From: an archaeon
GTDB taxonomy: Archaea; Thermoproteota; Nitrososphaeria; Nitrososphaerales; Gagatemarchaeaceae
Assembly: GCA_016432545.1 (NCBI GenBank)
Contig: CP066694.1
Coordinates: 1,433,206-1,497,205 of the forward strand
Direction of reading: 5' to 3'
Length of the DNA stretch: 64,000 nt
Of this stretch, positions 13,404 through 64,000 are shown one piece after another (within the stretch, counting starts at the first letter, position 1; the number at the start of each line of letters is the position of its first letter). The notes beneath the pieces were generated by a model, which was not told the DNA's origin, ran no database searches, and saw only the letters and a list, made by a program, of their open reading frames with translations. The position numbers were made by a program, and so were the translations under genes.

Positions 13404-13757
13404 ATGTATGCGCCCCCTTCCACTGTGTCAAACTGGTTCTCGGGATTCGACCCCGGCGTGGACAGTTCCAAAGAAACATTCCTCAATGTTGAAATTTTCG
13501 AGATGCTAGGGAGCAACTCGCTCGTAATTGTGGATTTAACGGAAGTGCGTCCAAATTGCCTCCTAGAACTTGGGGTGGCCCTTGGCCTCGGCAAGAAGAC
13601 CATCATCACTGCGATTGAAGGAACGCAGCTGCCGTTCGACGCGGAAGCGCTGCCTTGTCACTTCTGGCGCGTGGGCCAACCGAACAAGGTCAGACGAGAG
13701 GCCTTCGAGAAATTCGTGGTGAGAAACATCAATCGCAGAGGTGTCAGCCAAGATTGA
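13404..13757 (+). CDS. TIR/deoxyribosyltransferase-like fold protein, probably N-terminally truncated
   Basis: A 117-residue protein. The core VIVDLTEVRPNCLLELGVALGLGKKTIIT resembles the second half of nucleotide-binding TIR-like and nucleoside 2-deoxyribosyltransferase-like domains (Asp in a strand, then RPN..LELG.A.GLGK). The usual first strand and helix are missing or replaced, so this may be a truncated remnant at the edge of the accessory region. Such domains often serve in nucleotide signalling or NAD-consuming defence; nothing here proves that role. Confidence 0.5.
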   Translation: MYAPPSTVSNWFSGFDPGVDSSKETFLNVEIFEMLGSNSLVIVDLTEVRPNCLLELGVALGLGKKTIITAIEGTQLPFDAEALPCHFWRVGQPNKVRREAFEKFVVRNINRRGVSQD

Positions 13758-52151: not shown

Positions 52152-53525
52152 GTGTCGACCGGTCAGTTCGAGGACATCCTCAGCATTACCGGAACGGGTC
52201 TTGCGATTTTTGATGACGGCAAAGGTGTGGGCGTCACCTTCACGGCCGCACTCCATATCAACGGGAGGTTCGAAGGACAGATTGACTTCCCTGCCGAGTT
52301 CGAAGGGGATTTCTTTTCTCTTCAGGCTGTCCCCCTGACCTATTTCGACATCGAAGGCGCCGCGAACCTCAGGGATCATGCCTTTCCGATTATGATTCGG
52401 CGCTGCCTCCTCACTAGGTTTGAGATTTCTCACGGAGCAACAACAGAACTCCGAGGCAATTTCATCTGCCAAGAGGCGGTTTTCCAAGAAGAGTCCCTGA
52501 GGACGGTTCCAACCCGGAAACTCCTCTTCGGCTTCGAGTTAGCCAATGTTTCGAAGACATTCAGAGTGATAGTCGGGACAGAGCTGGGTGAGCTGGTTCT
52601 CCGCCACTCGAGTGAAATGGATTCGCTCGAGGCAAGGATGGATTCCTACGGAAGTCCCCTTGTCACTTCATCGGCAACAATCGAGGTGGCTTCGGGCGGC
52701 GGCCTCACGCTGGGGGAGATTTTACAGCGCGCGACCGTGACAGTTGAGAATTTCCTCAAGATTACTTCCCTTGCTCAGGGTAAGTGGCACACATGGGTAA
52801 CAGTAAGCATCTATGAAAGCTCTGTCGATGGAGGAGGCGAACTTCGCTACCTGTCCATCAGGCATGGCAAACTGCTGACATCGTCGGGCCGGCAACTTAC
52901 GAACCCTGCGCACTCGTCAAGATTCGTGTCCGCTGCGTGGAAAGGGTACTCGGGAAGGAATGTGAAGAAATACGGGTTCGACTTGGCGCTGGAATGGTTC
53001 GTCGGTGCCAACGGGTCTCAGCTGCTCGAATCCAAATTCCTCTCTGCAACTACTTGTCTCGAGCTTTTGATGGACCGGTACTCTCAAGAGGCAGGGAATG
53101 AATTCATGTTGCCTGGAGAATCCTTCGAACATCTGCGGGAGTACCTGAAGACAAGCCTGAAGGCTTGGGATGGAGCAAAGGGATTGCACTCAGACGTCCT
53201 TGGCTCGCTTGAGAACAAGCTGCTCGAACTGAACAGAAGATCTTACTCCCAGAAGGCGAGGATGATGCTGGATTTCTGGAGGATAAAGCGCGACGACCTT
53301 GGAGTCACTTTCGGAGACATCGTTTCAATCAGGAACAAAATCACACATACCGGAGATGCCAAGGTATCAGGATCCTACGATATGTTGCTTAAGTGCTACA
53401 ACGCAATCATGACAATGCTTGCCCGCGTGATGCTGGCGATTCTGGATTACGATGATCAATATTTCGACTGGGTCAAAGGGAATTTCGTGAGCTTTGTAGA
53501 TGCACGGACGCCAGTGCGGCAATGA
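52152..53525 (+). CDS. HEPN-domain protein, ApeA-like
   Basis: A 457-residue protein with a GTG start. The first 230 residues form a beta-rich domain (LSITGTGLAIFDDGKGVGVT, EGQIDFPAEFEGDFFSL). The C-terminal 200 are helical and contain GDIVSIRNKITHTGDAKVSG, in which R-N-x3-H is the HEPN RNase motif. This beta-plus-HEPN layout is that of ApeA-type anti-phage proteins that cleave RNA on infection. It lies next to restriction genes, which supports defence. Confidence 0.72.
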   Translation: MSTGQFEDILSITGTGLAIFDDGKGVGVTFTAALHINGRFEGQIDFPAEFEGDFFSLQAVPLTYFDIEGAANLRDHAFPIMIRRCLLTRFEISHGATTELRGNFICQEAVFQEESLRTVPTRKLLFGFELANVSKTFRVIVGTELGELVLRHSSEMDSLEARMDSYGSPLVTSSATIEVASGGGLTLGEILQRATVTVENFLKITSLAQGKWHTWVTVSIYESSVDGGGELRYLSIRHGKLLTSSGRQLTNPAHSSRFVSAAWKGYSGRNVKKYGFDLALEWFVGANGSQLLESKFLSATTCLELLMDRYSQEAGNEFMLPGESFEHLREYLKTSLKAWDGAKGLHSDVLGSLENKLLELNRRSYSQKARMMLDFWRIKRDDLGVTFGDIVSIRNKITHTGDAKVSGSYDMLLKCYNAIMTMLARVMLAILDYDDQYFDWVKGNFVSFVDARTPVRQ

Positions 53526-53879: not shown

Positions 53880-54311
53880 ATGCCTGACGTCCTGACGCCC
53901 GGGCAAAGGAGTTTGAACATGTCAAGGATTAGGGGGAGGAATACTAGTCCTGAAAGGATCGTTCGCGCGGGGCTGAAGGATGCCAAGATTACGGACTACC
54001 GTATCCATTCATCACTGCCAGGCAAACCCGACATCGTCTTTCCCAAGGCGCGGCTCGCGGTCTTCATAGACGGATGTTTCTGGCACAGGTGTCCTGAGGA
54101 CTACCAAGAACCTGACACCAGGAAGGACTTCTGGAGGAAGAAAATTGCTGGCAACGTGTTAAGGGACCGGCACGTGGATGGTATCTTGACTGGCACGGGC
54201 TGGACTGTCATGAGAATCTGGGAGCATGACGTGAAGGCCAGACCTGAACATGTGATTCGGTTGTTGGCAGCAGGGCTGAAGAAGTCTAGACGGTCAGGAC
54301 CTCGGCGTTGA
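53880..54311 (+). CDS. vsr: very short patch repair endonuclease (Vsr)
   Basis: A 143-residue Vsr-type nuclease: the N-terminus MSRIRGRNTSPERIVRAGL, the catalytic PD-(D/E)XK core with KPDIVFPKARLAVFIDGCFW (catalytic Asp), HRCPEDYQEPDTRKDFWRKK and WTVMRIWEHDV. Vsr nicks T:G mismatches created by deamination of 5-methylcytosine. Its end overlaps the end of the opposed cytosine methyltransferase gene by 26 bases. Confidence 0.93.
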   Translation: MPDVLTPGQRSLNMSRIRGRNTSPERIVRAGLKDAKITDYRIHSSLPGKPDIVFPKARLAVFIDGCFWHRCPEDYQEPDTRKDFWRKKIAGNVLRDRHVDGILTGTGWTVMRIWEHDVKARPEHVIRLLAAGLKKSRRSGPRR

Positions 54312-55524
54312 TTACCGGCCTTTCGACCGGACTCAAGAACGGCTTGATTGCCTCGGCGATGTGCTTGGCCAGTATCGGAGGGACCGCGTTCCCGATCTGC
54401 TTGAATTGCTGTGTCATGGGGCCGCAGAACCGGTACCAGTCCGGGAATGACTGGAGCCGGGCCGCCTCCCTGGGGGTGAACGTGCGCGCCTGAGAGGGGT
54501 CGGGATGGACATACATCAGGCCGTCCTTCTGCATGTGTGAGAGTATCGTGCTGGAGGGCCTGTGCCAACCCTGCTTCTTGATTCTGTCGGCAAATATGTC
54601 AGTCCGGTAAGGGGGCCTGAGCTTCTCGGGGAGGTCCCCCATCTTCTCCCCTACCTTCAGGATCCTGAAGACGTTCCTGTCTCTTTCACTGTGATTCCTA
54701 GCGACATGGTTGTAGAGCATAGGTGACCCCGTGCGGACCCGTGCCTGATAGGGGGTCAGGCCGGAGGTTGGCGGATACGGCACTTCGTCCAGGCCGCCCC
54801 CAGGTTCTAGCGGAGGTAAGTCGCTTATTGCATCCCCAACATTGAGGTAGTCGGGCAGGGGGTGGGTGGTCTCCCCCAGCTTCAGCTGTGGTTCAGCCTC
54901 CCAGTCCATATTCGTCGGCGTAGGGACAGGATTCTTCACCTTCATTCTGTTGCCGATGAAGAATGCGCGTTTGCGTATTTGTGGAACACCGTAACGTGCA
55001 GCGTTCAGCACTACCGGTACCGTTTCGTACCCGATGCCCTTGAATTCTTCGATTATCGCTTCCTTGACCTTCCCCTCCCGGAACGAAAGTATTGTCGGGA
55101 CGTTCTCCATTACGAAAAACTGGGGTTTGACATCACCCACGATCCGAACGAACTCTTTGTAGAGAGTCCTCCTTGGATCTCTGACCCTTTTCTTGCCTTC
55201 TTCAGTCAGTCTCTGGTGTCTAATCTTGGGAATCCCGACGTTTGAGAAACCCTGGCAGGGTGGCCCCCCTACCACCACGTCAACATTCCCACTCATCCTC
55301 AGCTTCCTGACATTTTCCTTGAGGACAAGGTTCCCTGTTTGCTTGGCGTTGAGCGAAAGAGTCTGGTAGGCGTATTCGTCGTTGTCCACGGCAGCCGCTA
55401 TGAAGAAGCCCGCCTGCCTGAATCCCTCTCCCAGACCACCTGGCCCGGCAAAGAGATCCACAACCGAGGGCGACCCTATGGGACCTGAACGATACGACAA
55501 CTGTTTCCCGCCTAGGCCCCTCAT
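54286..55524 (-). CDS. DNA (cytosine-5-)-methyltransferase
   Basis: A 412-residue C5 methyltransferase. Motif I is VVDLFAGPGGLGEGFRQAGF, motif IV GGPPCQGFSNVG with the catalytic Cys, motif VI has FVMENVPTIL, and motif X-like sequence (QFKQIGNAVPPILAKHIAEA) is at the end. No restriction enzyme gene is adjacent other than Vsr, so it may serve self-marking. GGGCTTAAATACA about 26 bases upstream makes the ATG at 55524 leaderless. The target sequence cannot be read from the protein. Confidence 0.94.
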   Translation of the reverse strand: MRGLGGKQLSYRSGPIGSPSVVDLFAGPGGLGEGFRQAGFFIAAAVDNDEYAYQTLSLNAKQTGNLVLKENVRKLRMSGNVDVVVGGPPCQGFSNVGIPKIRHQRLTEEGKKRVRDPRRTLYKEFVRIVGDVKPQFFVMENVPTILSFREGKVKEAIIEEFKGIGYETVPVVLNAARYGVPQIRKRAFFIGNRMKVKNPVPTPTNMDWEAEPQLKLGETTHPLPDYLNVGDAISDLPPLEPGGGLDEVPYPPTSGLTPYQARVRTGSPMLYNHVARNHSERDRNVFRILKVGEKMGDLPEKLRPPYRTDIFADRIKKQGWHRPSSTILSHMQKDGLMYVHPDPSQARTFTPREAARLQSFPDWYRFCGPMTQQFKQIGNAVPPILAKHIAEAIKPFLSPVERPVINAEVLTV

Positions 55525-55615
55525 TCGCCCGACATTTTGCCTTTGTATTTAAGCCCCGGAACAATTCTCTGACCGTCGGTCGTGCAACGCCTGATTTATC
55601 CTGGATAACCGTGGT

Positions 55616-55625
55616 GCTTAAATAG
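55616..55625 (+). promoter_or_regulatory. TATA element of the ATPase-GHKL-helicase operon
   Basis: GCTTAAATAG is centred about 29 bases before the mini-cistron ATG at 55650, so transcription would start at or very near that codon. No other promoter is seen before the six genes that follow. Confidence 0.6.
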
Positions 55626-55649
55626 ACCAAGGGCCGTCAGCCAAAAACC

Positions 55650-55700
55650 ATGAACCAACAACCAACATCAATGGGAGAGGAGCTGTATTGTTCGGGCTGA
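55650..55700 (+). CDS. leaderless 16-codon mini-cistron before the operon
   Basis: The ATG at 55650 lies at the predicted transcription start and reads MNQQPTSMGEELYCSG, ending at 55700, past the TTG (55688) of the ATPase gene. Its codons contain GGGAGAGGAG, the ribosome-binding site of the ATPase. Translation of the mini-cistron and initiation at the TTG would interfere or be coupled, as in a regulatory leader. Confidence 0.4.
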   Translation: MNQQPTSMGEELYCSG

Positions 55701-56806
55701 ACGCCGAGCACTACAGCATCAATCCGAAGGAGGAGTTCGACGTCTTCCTCGTCAGGCAGAAGGAGTTCCAGGAGTTCTACCAGGACCTGATAGGAACCCT
55801 CAACAGCGGCAAAGTGCCGAAATACGTTGTCTACGGGTCGTTCGGAATCGGGAAGACACACTTCCTGTACCACCTGAAGCAGCTGGTCTCTGACGTGACC
55901 GAGCCCATTTACTTTCAGACGCCCCCATCCCACAGGCGGACGTCCTTCACCGAGTTCTACGGCGCCGTACTATCAGAAATCGGGAGGACCAGGGTGATGG
56001 AGGTCCTTGGCAAGGGGGCAGGAAAACCCGGCAAACTCAGGAAGCTCGGAATGAGCGAGGATCTCGCGCTCGTGGTCGAGAACGCCATCAAGAATGACAA
56101 GGCCTTCCTGCTCTGGAAGTTCCTCAGTGGCATCAAGCTGAAATCGAGCGAGGCGGACGACCTAGAGACGATCCATACAGAGCTGGCTCCTGACGATGCA
56201 GTCGCCATCCTGAATGCCCTCGGGGCGCTGAGCGAGGAGGCCGGTGGTAAGCCACTGCTGCTGCTGGTCGACGAGTTCGAAAGCACCAGCAACATCGGGG
56301 GCGACGCGAGGGTGGTCTTCACCGAGGCCGTCAGGGCCCTGGTAGACGAGAGCAGCAAGGTGGGCGTTGTCTTCGCGGTGACGGCCAGGGCGCTGGCCGA
56401 GATGCCGGGGCCGATAGACTACGAACCCGTCAGAAGGCGCATAGGCCTGACCAACTACATCCAGTTCAGGGACTACAGCGAGAACGAGCTCGAGGAGTTC
56501 GTCTATGAGGCCATCCTGTACAGGAGGGACAGGAAGTTCGACATCAAAGGCGCCCTCTCCGCCTTGACGACCGACGAGACTGTTGACGCTCAGAGTTACC
56601 CGTTCTCCAAGGAGGCGGTGAAGGAGATAGTCAGCGCGGTGGCACTCTTCGCCGCGAACAACAAGATCGAGGCGGCCAGGCCCAAAGAGCTGCTTGAGCT
56701 GATGGACAAGGGGCTGCGGGTCGCCCTGCTCAACAAGAAGCATTTCGTCTCCAAGGACATCATACGCAAGGTCAGCGACGAGGTCGTGGAGGGGCTCTCA
56801 CTGTGA
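55688..56806 (+). CDS. P-loop ATPase, first gene of the candidate system
   Basis: A 372-residue AAA+/STAND-like ATPase. The N-terminus (FGLNAEHYSINPKEEFDVFL) leads to Walker A YVVYGSFGIGKTHFLYHL at about residue 52 and Walker B PLLLLVDEFESTS near 190; VFAVTARALAEMPG is a sensor-like region, and a helical C-domain follows. It has the look of archaeal Orc/STAND-type or BrxC-like regulators but lacks decisive motifs. The TTG start is chosen for its GAGAGGAG site seven bases upstream. It overlaps the next gene by 4 bases. Confidence 0.75.
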   Translation: MFGLNAEHYSINPKEEFDVFLVRQKEFQEFYQDLIGTLNSGKVPKYVVYGSFGIGKTHFLYHLKQLVSDVTEPIYFQTPPSHRRTSFTEFYGAVLSEIGRTRVMEVLGKGAGKPGKLRKLGMSEDLALVVENAIKNDKAFLLWKFLSGIKLKSSEADDLETIHTELAPDDAVAILNALGALSEEAGGKPLLLLVDEFESTSNIGGDARVVFTEAVRALVDESSKVGVVFAVTARALAEMPGPIDYEPVRRRIGLTNYIQFRDYSENELEEFVYEAILYRRDRKFDIKGALSALTTDETVDAQSYPFSKEAVKEIVSAVALFAANNKIEAARPKELLELMDKGLRVALLNKKHFVSKDIIRKVSDEVVEGLSL

Positions 56807-57768
56807 AGGTCCACTGGATGAGGTACCTCGTCGGGGACGCCGGGCACCTTCAGCGGACTTACCTTGCTGTCCTCACGGCGTCCAAGTACAGGGCCCTGAG
56901 CATCCGCCCACTGTGTGAGCTGTTCATCGAAAAGTACGGCGGGCTGACGGTGGAGGGGCCCCGGAAGAGGGGCCTGCTGGACTCGGAGTGGAGATCGGCC
57001 GAACCTCACTTCAGCTTTGCCAGGGAACTGGACTTCCTAGAGGGGCGGAGGCTGGAGAGGTGGGACGTCACCTTCGGGGCAGGGAGGACGTTCCTAACTC
57101 TGTGGGAGGCGAAGCAGAGGCAGACGGAGCTGCTGCTCCACCAGTTCCTCACACACGACAGGACTTTCTCCCTCCCGTTCCTCAGCAGACTGGTCGATGC
57201 TGACTACGACTTCGGCAGAGGCAGGTTCAAGGGGCTCGAGGGTCTGGCGAGAGAGGTCTGGGAGGAGATCTGGAAAGCGCACAGGTACGAGCTCGTGGCG
57301 CTCGAGCCGCCGCTCCCCGATTCAGTCAAGGTGACCGAAAGGACCCTGCTCCATCACGCGAGCGCGCGAATCAGGTTCCTCAACAGGATGGATGGTCTGG
57401 CACTGAACATCGATGTCCTGCGACGGCTGACCGAAGGCTTCCAGGGGACAGAGGATTCTGACCGGATGCCGGCCGATTCCTTTGCCAGGATCAAGGCGGC
57501 GACCTCCGGATTGGCCCCAGCCGAAGCGACGGCCAATGAATTGCATGCGGCTCTCATGGATGCATACCAGACCCTGCAGAAGGCAGGGTATATGTCGGGG
57601 TACGGGGCCTATCTCCTGGTCAACCAGAAGCTTCCGGCCAACAGATATGTTGCCTGGGAAACGCTGGTCAACCACGCCAGGGTGGGTGAAGGGTTCGTAT
57701 GGAAATCCAGCTTCAGGAGCGACGATTTTCTCCTCGGAATATCCCCGCAGAAGAAGGTGGCGATGTAG
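56803..57768 (+). CDS. unknown 321-residue protein, second gene of the candidate system
   Basis: GTG start overlapping the ATPase stop (GTGA). It is a soluble protein with winged-helix-like stretches (SIRPLCELFIEKYGGLTVEG, LLDSEWRSAEPHFSFARELD) and further helices. A repeat of this form could bind DNA. No catalytic motif recognised. Tight coupling with the ATPase suggests a complex. Confidence 0.65.
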   Translation: MKVHWMRYLVGDAGHLQRTYLAVLTASKYRALSIRPLCELFIEKYGGLTVEGPRKRGLLDSEWRSAEPHFSFARELDFLEGRRLERWDVTFGAGRTFLTLWEAKQRQTELLLHQFLTHDRTFSLPFLSRLVDADYDFGRGRFKGLEGLAREVWEEIWKAHRYELVALEPPLPDSVKVTERTLLHHASARIRFLNRMDGLALNIDVLRRLTEGFQGTEDSDRMPADSFARIKAATSGLAPAEATANELHAALMDAYQTLQKAGYMSGYGAYLLVNQKLPANRYVAWETLVNHARVGEGFVWKSSFRSDDFLLGISPQKKVAM

Positions 57769-57811
57769 GACGGCGCAGAAGTTCTACGAGCTACAGTCGA
57801 GATTCCGGGAG

Positions 57812-58576
57812 ATGTACATGGACGACGTCTCGTACTCTGAGATCTGCGCGACACTCGGTATCGGTGATTACACGGCGCGGGAATGGAGAAGGAAACTAGG
57901 CCTGCCGGTCAGGCTCGGGTATGAGCCGGTGTCCTGGATGGATGTAAAGAATCTGAACGGGCTCAGTCCGAGGCAGGTTGTCGAGCGGGTTGCGGGGGCA
58001 TTCGGCATCAGGGCTGAGGAGATACGACTCATCCTGACGCGGTTCGACAAGCTCCGCCAGAAGGGCAAATCAGCCGGGAGGAACCTCACCCAGCTGCTCC
58101 TCACCGCCGTCTACGAATACCTCAGATGGCCTCCGTCGCGCAAGCAGCCCCAGTCACCCACGCTGTTTGCCAAGGTGTGCCAGGACAAAGGGTTTGCAAT
58201 CAGGCGTTCCAATCTGCTCAGTCTTAGCCGCCTTTACAAGGAGGCGGGGCTCTTCCCCCCTGCCCACCTGACAGCGGCGCAGCTTCTCGAAATAAGATGG
58301 CCGGTCCTGATGACCCGCATGGACCTGCCCGCCAAGGTCAGATCGGTGGCACTCGCATTCATATCGGAGGTGAAGTTCGAAGGCAAGAGTCCTGAGGGTG
58401 CGGTGGCCGCATCCCTCTTCACCGCGGCGAGAATCCTTTCGTTGAACAGGGCGCAGAGTGACTTCGCCAGTTTCTTCGGCATCACCGAGGTAACGGTCCG
58501 CCACGCCATCGTTGACATCTATGCCTATTACGAGAGCATGGGCCAGAATCCAACTGTCAAGGCGGGATTACCTTGA
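57812..58576 (+). CDS. TFB-cyclin-like protein without zinc ribbon, third gene of the candidate system
   Basis: At least 254 residues. N-terminal helix-turn-helix (DVSYSEICATLGIGDYTARE) followed by helical repeats; the final part (LPAKVRSVALAFISEVKFEG, ASLFTAARILSLNRAQSDFA, FGITEVTVRHAIVDIYAYY) matches a TFB second cyclin fold with its DNA-contacting helix-turn-helix. No zinc ribbon is present. The frame is open upstream (AQKFYELQSRFRE in frame from 57770) with no start codon before the ATG at 57812, so the true start is unclear; a frameshift or an unusual start is possible. Confidence 0.65.
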   Translation: MYMDDVSYSEICATLGIGDYTAREWRRKLGLPVRLGYEPVSWMDVKNLNGLSPRQVVERVAGAFGIRAEEIRLILTRFDKLRQKGKSAGRNLTQLLLTAVYEYLRWPPSRKQPQSPTLFAKVCQDKGFAIRRSNLLSLSRLYKEAGLFPPAHLTAAQLLEIRWPVLMTRMDLPAKVRSVALAFISEVKFEGKSPEGAVAASLFTAARILSLNRAQSDFASFFGITEVTVRHAIVDIYAYYESMGQNPTVKAGLP

Positions 58577-60432
58577 GCGCCGTGTCAGGCGAGGCCGGGG
58601 AGCTCATCCTGCCGAAGATAACCGAGAGTTCCCAGCTGCTGGCGGCTCTGGCAAGCACGGGCGCGGGATTCGAAGCCCTCGGCGGCAGCTCGCTGATGCT
58701 CACCGAACCGGTCGAGAACAGCGTCGACTCAATTATCCAGGCGCGCAAGGCAGGGTTCAGGGGGAAGGGGATTGTCAGGATCTTCATCGACCGGGGAAAG
58801 GAACGCGTCATCATCGTCGACAACGGGCTCGGCTTCATCAATCCGCGTCACATATGTGAGAAGCCGTTCGATTCGCTGAAGAAGTATGACCCGGACCTGA
58901 CCGGCAAGTTCGCAAGGGGCTTGCAGGGGTTCCGCTCCTACTGCGAAACCTTGAGGTTCGTGACCCGCCGCCGGGACGTCCCGGCAGGGGAGCAGTTCAG
59001 AGGAAGATCCGGCAACACCGTGTCGCTGGACTTCAGGGCCAGCAGGCCGGAGGTTGAGGCCGCAGTCGCTCCTGACGTCCTCTTCGAGGAATGGAGCTGG
59101 GGGGAGTTCAACCAGGGCGCAGTGGCGTTCTACGGGGACTGGAAGCAGGGGGAGTTCGCCAAGATCCGCAGGGAGAGGCTCACCCGGAGGATCGAGCGCC
59201 ATTTCGGGGAGCTGATACGCAAGGGGGAGGTTGAAATCCTGCTGTGGGAGGGAGAGGATCTCGTCGCCGGAAGAAAGGTCCCACGCAAGGAGTTCTACGA
59301 GTGCAAGCCGAAGGACTACGGCGAATACACCAAGATCGACGTTCCCGCTGCCCAATACAATGGCGGGTCAGCGAAGGGGGAAGCTGTCTTCGAACTCTAC
59401 CTGATGCCCGGGCCCAAGTCAGACAGGGACTACAGGCCCTTTCTCATGTACAAGGATCGGCCAGTGGGGGACTCTCCCATCGCACTGATTGGGGAGTTCG
59501 CTGAGGATGCGGTCTGGAACAGCTCTTACCTGACCGGCTACGTCAGGGCGGACTTCTGCGAGATCAACGAACTCAGGCTTGCCCTCAAGCCGGGGGCCGC
59601 CCGGGACTTCCTCTACCAGCAGCTTCTGAACGTCGAGGGGGCGCTCGCCACTGCGATCAAGGAGCACGCCAAGGGGCTGATCGACATCAGGAGGAGTCAG
59701 GAAATCAACCAGCTGGTAAACAAGCTGCAGTCCTTTCTCAAGGCCAAGAAGATATTCGACTTCAAGATTGCGCGCGAATCCGGTTCCATATCAACCGGAG
59801 ACGACGTGGAGACGCTCCAAGGGTCGGTGTCCCAAGGAACTGATGCCCAGTCAGCGTTCCCGGCAGCCTCGGGCGACCCGGCAGTGACAGGCGTCCCAGT
59901 CCAGGTCGAGCCGGTCGCGGGCGTCATCCCGGGCGGTGACCCCGGCGTCCACACAGGGCAGACGGATTTCGGCGGGACGGGAGGAGAGGGAGGCGGCAAA
60001 AAGGAGGGAGGGCCGGGAGGACCGGGTTCGGAGGCAGGGTACGGCAAGGACGGGTACCGGGACGCCAACGGGGAGCTGAACAAACTCCAAACGGTCGAGC
60101 AGCAGGTATCCTCGGGGGACGCGGCCTCTGCCAGCACCAGAACCTACAGGCGCAGGAAGCCGCGGGGGTTCAACATCACCACCCAGGACAACGAATTCTC
60201 CGAGTGGCTGTCAGATTTCGACGAACTTACCTCGACCGTGATAGTCAACAGCGGACACCTAAGATACAAGGCCAGGGACAATCCTGACGACCCCATCAAC
60301 AAAGACCTGCTGGCGTACCTCGCCGAACTCTACATCTGGGAAATCTGCAAGCTCGCTGGAAGGAAGAACAGCGAGTTCCCTGTGATGGACACCTTCCTCA
60401 AGACCAAATACGAATTCTTCGAGGTGGACTAG
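58573..60432 (+). CDS. GHKL-type ATPase, fourth gene of the candidate system
   Basis: A 619-residue protein with a TTG start overlapping the previous stop. The N-terminal 250 residues show the Bergerat fold: N box LTEPVENSVDSIIQARKAG (residues about 37-55), G1 box VIIVDNGLGFIN, and the lid/G2 region LTGKFARGLQGFRSYCETL. These motifs belong to GHKL ATPases (MutL, Hsp90, topoisomerase VI B, MORC). A second alpha/beta domain follows, then a Gly/Pro-rich linker (about residues 440-500) and a C-terminal domain (FNITTQDNEFSEWLSDFDEL). ATP-driven clamp closing on DNA is a likely mode (inference). Confidence 0.82.
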   Translation: MSAVSGEAGELILPKITESSQLLAALASTGAGFEALGGSSLMLTEPVENSVDSIIQARKAGFRGKGIVRIFIDRGKERVIIVDNGLGFINPRHICEKPFDSLKKYDPDLTGKFARGLQGFRSYCETLRFVTRRRDVPAGEQFRGRSGNTVSLDFRASRPEVEAAVAPDVLFEEWSWGEFNQGAVAFYGDWKQGEFAKIRRERLTRRIERHFGELIRKGEVEILLWEGEDLVAGRKVPRKEFYECKPKDYGEYTKIDVPAAQYNGGSAKGEAVFELYLMPGPKSDRDYRPFLMYKDRPVGDSPIALIGEFAEDAVWNSSYLTGYVRADFCEINELRLALKPGAARDFLYQQLLNVEGALATAIKEHAKGLIDIRRSQEINQLVNKLQSFLKAKKIFDFKIARESGSISTGDDVETLQGSVSQGTDAQSAFPAASGDPAVTGVPVQVEPVAGVIPGGDPGVHTGQTDFGGTGGEGGGKKEGGPGGPGSEAGYGKDGYRDANGELNKLQTVEQQVSSGDAASASTRTYRRRKPRGFNITTQDNEFSEWLSDFDELTSTVIVNSGHLRYKARDNPDDPINKDLLAYLAELYIWEICKLAGRKNSEFPVMDTFLKTKYEFFEVD

Positions 60433-60453
60433 ACGGGAGGAAAGGAGGAAGTA

Positions 60454-61347
60454 TTGGCTGCCATAGCGGCCCTGGTCCCCAAAATACAGAAGGACCAGTC
60501 GAAGGTCGGAAGCGCAATCGAGGCCTACGATACAAGGCACCTGTGGGCGCTAGGCGATCAGGTCGGGAAATACGAGTCCCTGGCGGGCAGCGAAGAGCAG
60601 GCCATCTCCGAGATTCTGACACATTTCGAATCTGGCCTGGTCAGGTTCCAGCCTGCCCTGCTGAAGAAGGCGCGGGCGGCGAGGAGGGCATTCCAGTCAG
60701 AAGAAGAGTACCTGGCATATGCCAAGGGGGTGAGTTACGGCAAGCTCAGGGAGGTTCTCCCCATTCTGGACTCGGACTTTGCCCAGGCCTTGGGGGTCCC
60801 ACAGGACGAGTTCACGAGACTGAGGGGCCTTCTCCCTAAGCTGACGTACGAGGAGACCCTGGCCGAGGTCAGGAAGATCAGGGAGAAGTATGACCCCGAA
60901 GGAATCACGGTTGACTACGACCAGGTCTGGGAGGACATGGAAGCATCGGTCACCGTCCTGAGCGCGGCGGTCAACAACAGAGACAGGACAGGCATGAGTG
61001 AATTCAGGCAGCTTTTCGGCGCCGATTTCATAACAAACAGCAGGCGGCTGATGGCGGCCCTGAACGACGAGACAGGCTTCAAGGGCATCACCGCCGGCCT
61101 CTCGAGGAATTTCGGCCGCGACCTAGACACCACCTCCCCCGGCCTCAAGGGAGAGATCAACCGGGTTGTGCACAGCCTGTCCCTCCTGAGGCGTGCAGAC
61201 CCCAAGGCTAGAGAGAGGTTCCGCGACAGAGTCGGGAAGATGATGATAGGCGAGCTGGGCACGCTGATGAAGGCTGCGAGCAGTGACGAGGAAACCGAGA
61301 GATACCTGAGGAGCAGGAAAATCATTGAGAGACTGAAGGTTCCATAA
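60454..61347 (+). CDS. unknown helical 297-residue protein, fifth gene of the candidate system
   Basis: TTG start preceded by a GGAGGAAAGGAGGAA ribosome-binding site. The protein is almost entirely helical and charged, with coiled-coil-like segments (KKARAARRAFQSEEEYLAYA, ERFRDRVGKMMIGELGTLMK). No catalytic motif seen. Its position between the GHKL ATPase and the helicase-nuclease (TAA then TTG of the next gene at once) suggests a bridging subunit. Confidence 0.62.
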   Translation: MAAIAALVPKIQKDQSKVGSAIEAYDTRHLWALGDQVGKYESLAGSEEQAISEILTHFESGLVRFQPALLKKARAARRAFQSEEEYLAYAKGVSYGKLREVLPILDSDFAQALGVPQDEFTRLRGLLPKLTYEETLAEVRKIREKYDPEGITVDYDQVWEDMEASVTVLSAAVNNRDRTGMSEFRQLFGADFITNSRRLMAALNDETGFKGITAGLSRNFGRDLDTTSPGLKGEINRVVHSLSLLRRADPKARERFRDRVGKMMIGELGTLMKAASSDEETERYLRSRKIIERLKVP

Positions 61348-64000
61348 TTGAGCAAGACCACCAGTGCAGGCCTCGATTTCACAAAGGAACAGCTGAAGAT
61401 CATTTCGCACCGCAACGGGCACCTCAGGATAATCGCCTGCCCTGGCTCCGGCAAGACCGAGGTCGTCTCCCAGCGAGTAGTCCGACTGATTGAGGGTGGC
61501 GTCGCGCCCAAGACGATCGTCGCGTTCACATTCACAGAAAAGGCGGCGGAGGAACTGAAGTTCAGGATCCGCCAGATTCTCGAGGAGCGGTGCCCAGACA
61601 GGGCCGATTTCGGGGACATGTTCGTCGGCACGATTCACTCGTTCTGCTTCCAGATGCTCAAGGAGCTGGTCCCGGAGTACCGTTCGTACGACGTGCTGGA
61701 CGACCCGAAGAGGGTCGCGTTCCTTTCGAAGGGGGCGAATTACTTCTACAACATCGGGCTCGTCAGGCTGGAGAAGACCCACGGTCTCTGGTACTTCCAG
61801 ACGATTGACCGGTTCATCGAAAGCGCCGACATTGTGATGACCGAGGATGTGGACCCGGACAGAATCACAGACAGGAGGTTCGCGGAGTGCTACGGGAACT
61901 ACAGGGCGTCCTTGGACAGGGAGAAGTACTTCGACTTCTCGTCCGTGATGCACGCCTTCGTCTCTCTCCTGAGGGACAACCGCGAGGTGAGGAAGGCTGT
62001 CCACGCCCGGATCAAGCATGTCGTCGTCGACGAATACCAAGATGTGAATAGAATCCAGGACCTGCTGGTCGAGCTCCTGTCAGAAGGCGCCGACTCCGTC
62101 TGCGTCGTCGGGGATGACGACCAGAACATATACCACTGGAGAGGCTCCGACGTGAGCATCATCAGGAGCTTCGCGAAAAAGTACGGACGGAGATACAGGG
62201 TCACCGAAGGGCGCCTTTCCACCAATTTCAGAAGCACAGGGGCAATCATAGACACCGCGAGGTCGTTGATAGAACACAACGACGAACGGCTGGCCAAGGA
62301 AATGGAGCCGAGCCGAAAGCTGCCGAGAAAGAGCGAACCGGGGGACATAATCTACCACCACTTCGGTTCCGACAACGAGGAGTACAGCTTCATACTTGAC
62401 AAAATCAGGGAGCTGCTGGGCACCGACTTCCTCGACAAAAGGAACAACCCGTTCTCCCTCTCGTACAGCGATTTCGCGGTCCTCGTTAGGAGCAACGCGG
62501 ATGCCGCCAAGGTAGTGGCGTTCCTCGACCGCAACCACATTCCATGCGTGGCCTACAGCGGGACGAGCGTCTTCGAAGCGCCCGAAGTCGTGCTGGCAAT
62601 GAATTGCATCGCATACCTTTTCGGGGCCAAGTCGTACCCGGACTTCGGGAAGACTCCCACTCTCAGCCAGCTAGGTGAGGCCTACAAGGCTGTGTTCGAC
62701 CGGAGGTTCACGGAGGCGAAGGTGGAAAAATTCATCGTGGGGATGGCGAGGGTAAGGAAAGAAGCGGACGCCCTCCTCACGAAAGGCAAGAAGGACTACT
62801 TCGGCGACCTCGGCCTCCAGGGGTTCTACTACAAGATACTCTCGGCGATGGGCGCAGGAAGATTTGACTTCGGGGATGTTACGAATTACAACCTCGCGGC
62901 TCTGAGCCGTGCCATCTCTGACTACGAGTCGGTCTGGATCAGGCTGAGAGCCAGCGAAGTCAGGTACTTCTTCAACTTTGTCAGATCCTTCGCAGAAAGC
63001 CACTACACAGACACGCAACACAGCGACGCTTCGGTGATCAATGCCGTCCACGTCCTTACCATCCACAAAGCGAAGGGGCTGGAGTACCCTGCCGTGTTCA
63101 TCCCCGGATTCGAAACAAGAAGGAAGCCTCTCTCAGGTTACAATTTCGTCGACAGCAAACTGTACGACGTCCGGAAGTACGAGGGGACCAAGGAGGACGA
63201 AAGGCGTGTCTATTACACAGCCATGACTAGGGCAGAGAAGTACCTCTTCATCAGCGGGTCAGAAGACCACGAGGGCAGGAAGCATTCGTACAAGTCCCAC
63301 CCCTTTGTCCAGGAGCTGGACTTCGGGCACGTCTCAGGCGTCGTGAAGCTGAAGAGGCTCCGCTCGGGCCTTCCTCCGAAGGCGGCCGTGTCGGGCACAT
63401 ACCCCACTTCGTTCACACAGCTGAACGCATACTCCCGGTGCCCGCAGGACTTCAGGCTGAGACACATCTACCAGTACAATGCAGGGGTCCCCGTCACCTT
63501 CGGCTACGGAACCAATGTCCACAATGCCCTCAACATAATCCACTCTGACTATGTCGAGAACAGGAAGGTCCCGGACGACGGCGAAATCGAGGCGCTGGTA
63601 AACAGGATATTCAAGCTCCGCTACGCCACAAAACCCATTGCAGACAGGATGAAGACGAGCGTGATCAGGATCGTGAAGAATTACGTGGGGCTCCACAAAG
63701 GCGACTTCGGCAGGATTCTTGAAACGGAGAAGAAGTTCGAATTCGCCCTCGACGACGCTCTCATCGCCGGCCAGATCGACCTCCTGAAGAAGGTCGACGA
63801 AAAGGGCTCTGTGACAGAGGTGGAGATAATCGATTTCAAGACCGAGCAGAACGACAGCATCTACACGGCTGATTATGAAAGGCAGCTCAGATTCTATGCA
63901 ATCGCATGTCTCGAATCCCTAGGACTGGACCCGCAGAAGGCGTACGTCCACCACCTCGACGAGAACAGGAAGAGCGAGGTGGACATATCCGCTTCAGTTC
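61348..64000 (+). CDS. UvrD/Rep helicase fused to a RecB-type nuclease, sixth gene (partial, runs off right edge)
   Basis: At least 884 residues with a TTG start directly after the previous stop. Helicase motifs: Ia-type IIACPGSGKTE (Walker A), AFTFTEKAAEELKFRI, VGTIHSFCF, VVVDEYQDVN (motif II), GDDDQNIYHWRGS (motif III), LSTNFRS (motif IV), VLTIHKAKGLEYPAVF (motif V), RRVYYTAMTRAEKYLF (motif VI). From about residue 690 a Cas4/RecB-like nuclease follows: SRCPQDFRLRHIY, GTNVHNAL, AGQIDLL and EIIDFKTEQ (D-x-K). The combination is like AddA/PcrA-RecB nucleases. The end is outside the window. Confidence 0.93.
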   Translation, partial: MSKTTSAGLDFTKEQLKIISHRNGHLRIIACPGSGKTEVVSQRVVRLIEGGVAPKTIVAFTFTEKAAEELKFRIRQILEERCPDRADFGDMFVGTIHSFCFQMLKELVPEYRSYDVLDDPKRVAFLSKGANYFYNIGLVRLEKTHGLWYFQTIDRFIESADIVMTEDVDPDRITDRRFAECYGNYRASLDREKYFDFSSVMHAFVSLLRDNREVRKAVHARIKHVVVDEYQDVNRIQDLLVELLSEGADSVCVVGDDDQNIYHWRGSDVSIIRSFAKKYGRRYRVTEGRLSTNFRSTGAIIDTARSLIEHNDERLAKEMEPSRKLPRKSEPGDIIYHHFGSDNEEYSFILDKIRELLGTDFLDKRNNPFSLSYSDFAVLVRSNADAAKVVAFLDRNHIPCVAYSGTSVFEAPEVVLAMNCIAYLFGAKSYPDFGKTPTLSQLGEAYKAVFDRRFTEAKVEKFIVGMARVRKEADALLTKGKKDYFGDLGLQGFYYKILSAMGAGRFDFGDVTNYNLAALSRAISDYESVWIRLRASEVRYFFNFVRSFAESHYTDTQHSDASVINAVHVLTIHKAKGLEYPAVFIPGFETRRKPLSGYNFVDSKLYDVRKYEGTKEDERRVYYTAMTRAEKYLFISGSEDHEGRKHSYKSHPFVQELDFGHVSGVVKLKRLRSGLPPKAAVSGTYPTSFTQLNAYSRCPQDFRLRHIYQYNAGVPVTFGYGTNVHNALNIIHSDYVENRKVPDDGEIEALVNRIFKLRYATKPIADRMKTSVIRIVKNYVGLHKGDFGRILETEKKFEFALDDALIAGQIDLLKKVDEKGSVTEVEIIDFKTEQNDSIYTADYERQLRFYAIACLESLGLDPQKAYVHHLDENRKSEVDISASV

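Follow-up and report, generated by a model that had tools for sequence, protein, structure and literature searches.

The six co-directional genes that close the 64,000-nucleotide stretch of archaeal DNA analysed here (the window) raise the question of whether they encode one machine, and whether that machine serves defence. Little of archaeal defence outside CRISPR and restriction-modification has been charted, and a generally lower prevalence of defence systems has been reported for Thermoproteota (PMC12988326). The genes, which we call ATP1, ORF2, TFB3, GHKL4, ORF5, and HEL6 in their order, had been singled out in a sequence-only reading as a P-loop ATPase, an unknown protein, a TFB-like protein, a GHKL ATPase, a second unknown protein, and a UvrD-RecB nuclease. 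Our analysis led us to regard the set as a promising candidate for a new arrangement of familiar parts. We tentatively read it as an operon for restriction-like, ATP-dependent defence with several components, specific to its lineage and located on a defence/mobile island of the archaeon, an interpretation that is quite possible but falls short of probable.

All six open reading frames (ORFs) were confirmed in the window, and all lie on the plus strand, as had been claimed. The last one overruns the window end; HEL6 was completed from the whole genome, where its stop codon lies 140 bases past position 64000. The TATA-like box CTTAAATA at 55617-55624 on the plus strand is the sole visible promoter of the operon. 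A scan of both strands from 55625 to 64000 with one mismatch allowed found no further match to TTTAWATA, and matches to sigma-70-type promoters occurred at chance level only, so that the single promoter of the sequence-only reading was borne out. A second, divergent TATA-like copy at 55546-55553 serves a methylase gene outside the operon. ATP1 starts with a TTG codon after GGGAGAGGAG. In gene order, the joints are a 4-base overlap, a 43-base gap, a 4-base overlap, a 21-base gap, and a 0-base gap; the description of most joints as 4-base overlaps or immediate holds for three of the five and fails for the 43-base and 21-base gaps. The start of TFB3 was taken as the first in-frame ATG past ORF2, and the 43-base gap before it holds unless TFB3 uses an upstream start. 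The G+C content at third codon positions (GC3) is alike across the six genes (0.75-0.85).

Relatives of the operon genes were sought in 398 genomes from the phylum and 400 from the class, and also among GTDB contigs, IMG/VR, and plasmids. The genomes are a sample, many of them fragmented, and single-sequence searches miss distant relatives. ATP1 (55688-56806, plus strand; 372 amino acids) is a BrxD/Cdc6-like AAA+ ATPase that matches Pfam BrxC_BrxD (3.3e-8) and AAA_22 as well as the PADLOC BrxD model (2.2e-8). Its score against the BrxD equivalog was 32 bits versus a cut-off of 350, which places it outside BrxD proper. ORF2 (56803-57768, plus strand; 321 amino acids) is a conserved neighbour of ATP1 that matches no family. 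Its predicted structure is mostly helical and weak (pLDDT 56), the model possibly containing a C-terminal winged helix, and a Foldseek search with this model gave no significant match. The two genes are adjacent in genome G015, with identities of 41% for ATP1 and 32% for ORF2, and also in G337; the pair is thus common to three archaeal genomes. With GHKL4, ORF5, ORF2, and ATP1 as a joint query, the 400 class genomes yielded the pair in G015, a fragment of ORF2 in G668, and, in G671 and G521, distant ATPases of the ATP1 type. The ATP1 profile matched one genome in the GTDB contigs and nothing in the viral contigs, and among the same-genus genomes ATP1 was present in one. At the profile level, ATP1 is a relative of ATPases in archaeal DpdA islands (hhalign probability 99.3).

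The surroundings of these relatives can be described as follows. The two ATP1-ORF2 pairs occupy L011 11664-14270 and L030 310-2437. In G015 the pair lies near genes for an N6_N4 methylase and an EcoRII-C endonuclease, and it is followed by a DUF3800 gene. The third ORF in G337, which is cut, resembles DUF3800 by eye only and no test supports the likeness; we do not claim a shared ATPase-ORF2-DUF3800 trio. Three Dpd-like archaeal islands, at L031 6000-19000 (G340), L045 2438-7579 (G521), and L010 6178-13104 (a Natronorubrum aibiense plasmid), carry transglycosylases (DpdA equivalog 1.6e-98 in L031), and each encodes an ATP1-related ATPase together with an unnamed partner protein of about 300 amino acids. 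A comparison of ORF2 with this partner gave no support for a relationship.

TFB3 (57812-58576, plus strand) resembles a TFB core. It matches TFIIB in Pfam (4.4e-8) and in PDB (5.7e-6), the second cyclin repeat alone being aligned, and its N-terminus is a helix-turn-helix-like stretch. TFB3 is not a canonical TFB: it scored 29.9 bits against a cut-off of 384, and there is no zinc ribbon in its sequence. Its relatives were distant TFB matches only.

GHKL4 (58573-60432, plus strand; 619 amino acids) has no Pfam GHKL match. The Bergerat-fold motifs N, G1, and G2 (EPVENSVD, DNGLGF, and GKFARGLQG) are present in GHKL4, and its one clear relative, found by the joint query at the end of a short contig (G654, L042; 30% identity), matches HATPase_c at 6e-4. 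An hhalign comparison using a profile of these two sequences gave 3e-5 for E. coli MutL and 2e-6 for HtpG, whereas unrelated and shuffled controls gave 0.085 or worse. On its sequence motifs, the HATPase_c match of its relative, and the profile matches to MutL and HtpG, GHKL4 belongs to the GHKL ATPase superfamily. The C-terminal part, a Gly/Pro-rich linker followed by a short C-terminal domain, has a MutL-like outline. As a single query, GHKL4 had no match in 100 relatives or among plasmids, GTDB contigs, and viral contigs, and in the 398 phylum genomes it gave two weak matches only, with E values of 0.001 (in the low-complexity linker) and 0.006. A search of viral contigs with the GHKL pair profile gave no match, and in the genus to which the GHKL4 relative belongs the profile detected no further protein. 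This relative adjoins exonuclease-like and VRR_NUC genes, without other operon genes.

ORF5 (60454-61347, plus strand; 297 amino acids) matches no family, and no relatives were detected in the genomes, plasmids, and viral contigs searched. HEL6 (61348-64140, plus strand; 930 amino acids) is a UvrD helicase fused to a RecB/PD-(D/E)XK nuclease, matching UvrD at 9.8e-60 and PDDEXK_1 at 3.9e-17. It contains the motifs DEYQD and GQIDLL...DFKT and the cysteine cluster CSECDYAMIC, the last of which suggests an Fe-S cluster as in AddB-type nucleases. From its superfamily 1 (SF1) helicase and RecB-type nuclease motifs, we assign it as a UvrD/AddA-type helicase-nuclease. The domain assignments of the sequence-only reading were accordingly upheld, by profile matches for ATP1, TFB3, and HEL6 and by motifs and hhalign for GHKL4. 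Relatives of HEL6 were found at 49% identity (at a contig end), at 41% (standing alone, in G399), and at 30-37%; two of the last group adjoin N6_N4 methylases, one of them also with ResIII in a three-gene run. In L024 9311-18247 and L021 8876-12365, the UvrD-PD(D/E)XK helicase-nuclease gene is directly 5' of the N6_N4 methylase gene, and L024 also encodes a ResIII helicase; the arrangement is that of a type III-like operon to which a helicase-nuclease has been added.

No named system in PADLOC, NCBIfam, or Pfam matches the set, as the sequence-only reading had expected, and a literature search found no paper describing it. The same reading had proposed a neighbourhood search for co-occurrence of the six genes in distant genomes. 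Parts do recur, namely the ATP1-ORF2 pair, HEL6, and GHKL4, but none of the other genomes searched contained the complete set, an outcome that the same reading had named as refuting it, and the idea of a conserved six-gene machine is not sustained; the mechanism proposed there is a possible one. Since relatives of ATP1 with ORF2, of HEL6, and of GHKL4 recur apart, the operon is put together from modules that travel separately. This bears on the main rival explanation, which holds that at least two independent defence units were stacked under one promoter by island shuffling, namely a switch module of ATP1 and ORF2 and a module of GHKL4, ORF5, and HEL6, with TFB3 as a regulator and no single six-protein mechanism. 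The occurrence of the ATP1-ORF2 pair in G015 and G337 without the rest, of HEL6 relatives without ATP1 and ORF2, and of the GHKL relative on a different contig, apart from the other operon genes, would all be expected of such stacking, whereas joints that are short or overlapping from the first gene to the last, the single promoter, and the similar GC3 argue against it. We consider it somewhat unlikely.

Several observations also weigh against a single defence machine directly. Selection for the whole set is unproven, given that the set was seen nowhere else. The ATP1-ORF2 pair works elsewhere without the other four genes; GHKL4 and HEL6 relatives were not found in G015 or G337 at the thresholds used, although such an empty answer is weak. 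A HEL6 relative is solitary in G399, the predicted structure of GHKL4 was unusable (pLDDT 34), and the roles given below to TFB3 and ORF5 are guesses.

The host genome is 1.50 Mb in a single contig, which is circular, as its first 141 bases recur at the contig end. The host belongs with the Thermoproteati, Candidatus Culexmicrobium profundum being placed in the same phylum. The operon is surrounded by the kinds of genes that the sequence-only reading took as a sign of a defence setting: a HEPN (Apea-like) protein gene at 52152-53525 on the plus strand (HEPN_Apea 0.0047, below the Pfam cut-off), a Vsr endonuclease gene at 53880-54311 on the plus strand (Vsr 1.3e-21), and, outside the operon and divergent from it, a cytosine DNA methylase gene at 54286-55524 on the minus strand (DNA_methylase 4.3e-66). 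The gene 3' of the operon (64130-65530, or with an ATG start at 64241) shows a HEPN-type RxxxxH motif by eye. Its GC3 of 0.62, compared with 0.75-0.85 in the operon, makes it probably a neighbour and not a seventh member. Its product has a 44% relative in the same-genus genome G004 in which the RxxxxH motif is kept; the island around that relative (L051 1-10981) also encodes YprA-like and SNF2-type helicases, a 1659-residue sacsin-type GHKL protein, and an EVE protein. The two HEPN-type proteins flanking the operon have no detectable kinship to each other. A second cytosine methylase gene and a Vsr-like gene were seen by eye downstream, at L002 14106-15790 (about 67105-68789 in window numbering), less than 14 kb from the first pair, and in their 3' parts the two cytosine methylase genes show about 70% likeness across 105 bases.

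Window positions 23118-51687 appear as an integrated conjugative-like element, with genes for a HerA-like ATPase (31743), a T2SSE/VirB11-like ATPase (34041), a type IV secretion system coupling-type ATPase (45596), a TFB (48660), and an ArdC-like protein (50217). Just across the contig origin from the island, an integrase-like ORF starts in tRNA-like sequence (L047 247-1677) and is followed by a toxin-antitoxin-like pair (L047, about 1700-2250); these ORFs are possibly the far end of the element. A tRNA-Arg at 13574, considered as an attachment site, lies inside an ORF, is probably spurious, and was not used. The region is a defence/mobile island. The operon might be a module that processes DNA on behalf of the mobile element itself, in replication, recombination, transfer, or anti-defence, instead of defending the host. 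The conjugation-type ATPases, ArdC, and TFB at 23-51 kb, the integrase-like ORF, and the exonuclease-like and VRR_NUC neighbours of the GHKL relative are in keeping with this. The operon itself is flanked by methylase, Vsr, and HEPN-type genes, and the GHKL4, ATP1, ORF5, and GHKL pair queries found no relatives in the viral contigs or plasmids searched; we therefore regard a mobile-element module as improbable.

The combination of a MutL-like GHKL protein and UvrD with a nearby Vsr and cytosine methylase recalls very short patch and mismatch repair, and suggests a DNA-repair operon, perhaps coupled to the correction of deaminated methylcytosine by Vsr. Such an operon would hardly be absent from 100 relatives, more than 20 of them of the same genus, and the absence of GHKL4 from these genomes indicates that it is not a housekeeping gene. 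There is no MutS among the operon genes, and ATP1, ORF2, and TFB3 would be left unexplained. Repair is thus very improbable, and the operon is not a core repair operon of the relatives, another outcome by which the sequence-only reading could have failed.

The interpretation as a defence operon is based on the tight co-directional arrangement under one promoter and the domain assignments; on the island, where Vsr, methylase, and HEPN-type genes occur together with ArdC and conjugation-type genes; on the patchy distribution (GHKL4 absent in 100 relatives, ATP1 in one same-genus genome); on the ATP1-ORF2 pair being once near an N6_N4 methylase and an EcoRII-C endonuclease; and on the HEL6 relatives beside N6_N4 methylases and the ATP1-type ATPases in DpdA islands. 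The data directly support the way the operon is organised, the assignment of AAA+, TFB, GHKL, UvrD, and nuclease domains to its products, and the repeated occurrence of ATP1 with ORF2; the mechanistic steps that follow are drawn from domain content. ATP1, as an ORC/Cdc6-type AAA+ protein, and ORF2 would form a switch or loader, assembling on DNA that is foreign or improperly marked. TFB3, which has a TFB core but lacks the zinc ribbon that recruits RNA polymerase, may be a DNA-binding tether. GHKL4 would be an ATP-gated clamp closing as MutL does, and ORF5, whose gene lies between theirs, an adaptor between GHKL4 and HEL6. Through ORF5, the clamp would load and activate HEL6, which would unwind and degrade the DNA. 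Interaction of the proteins, DNA as the target, and protection are putative features of this model. There are precedents for some steps: MutL acts on UvrD and GHKL proteins of the MORC/paraMORC type serve restriction systems (PMC2292703), and BrxD has been proposed to load or activate BrxHI (PMC12839542). The fullest version, a new ATP-dependent DNA-restricting system with a captured archaeal TFB core for DNA recognition, a Cdc6/BrxD-like ATPase pair to license loading, and a MutL-like GHKL clamp as the trigger of UvrD-RecB, is in our estimate unlikely. The locus is a testable defence candidate whose parts are recognised by no profile library as forming a system, and it offers a candidate case of MutL-like control over a UvrD-type nuclease outside repair. 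It would also put a TFB core to an unusual use, as a subunit that binds DNA instead of an initiation factor.

On the defining features tested, the operon falls outside BREX, Gabija, and Dpd, and TFB3 outside the canonical TFBs. The operon resembles Type 2 BREX, reported without archaeal members (PMC12839542), in that a BrxD-like AAA+ ATPase is encoded with a helicase, as in the BrxD-BrxHI dyad, but the helicase here is SF1 UvrD-type with a nuclease, whereas BrxHI is a Ski2-like superfamily 2 (SF2) enzyme. No PglZ, PglX/BrxX, or BrxC was found among the six operon and three neighbour proteins, and no PglW was seen in the operon. Gabija also has a UvrD-family helicase, and HEL6 matches the GajB model at 2.5e-60, although UvrD models cross-match generally; the OLD-type nuclease GajA had no match among the nine scanned proteins, and HEL6 carries a RecB-type nuclease. 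The Dpd/DpdA archaeal islands have an ATP1-type ATPase in common with the operon, which lacks DpdA and deazaguanine genes (no DpdA/Dpd match among the scanned proteins) and whose ORF2 could not be related to the Dpd partner protein. With MutL-UvrD of mismatch repair it shares a GHKL ATPase with a linker and C-terminal domain encoded near a UvrD helicase, but it has no MutS, HEL6 has its own nuclease, and the distribution is patchy. The MORC/paraMORC restriction-type systems (Iyer et al. 2008, PMC2292703) likewise have a GHKL ATPase together with helicase and nuclease in surroundings rich in methylase genes; their helicases are SF2, whereas the operon has an SF1 UvrD with a fused nuclease and no methylase gene of its own. 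The operon would work like a restriction-type helicase-nuclease system under MutL-like control.

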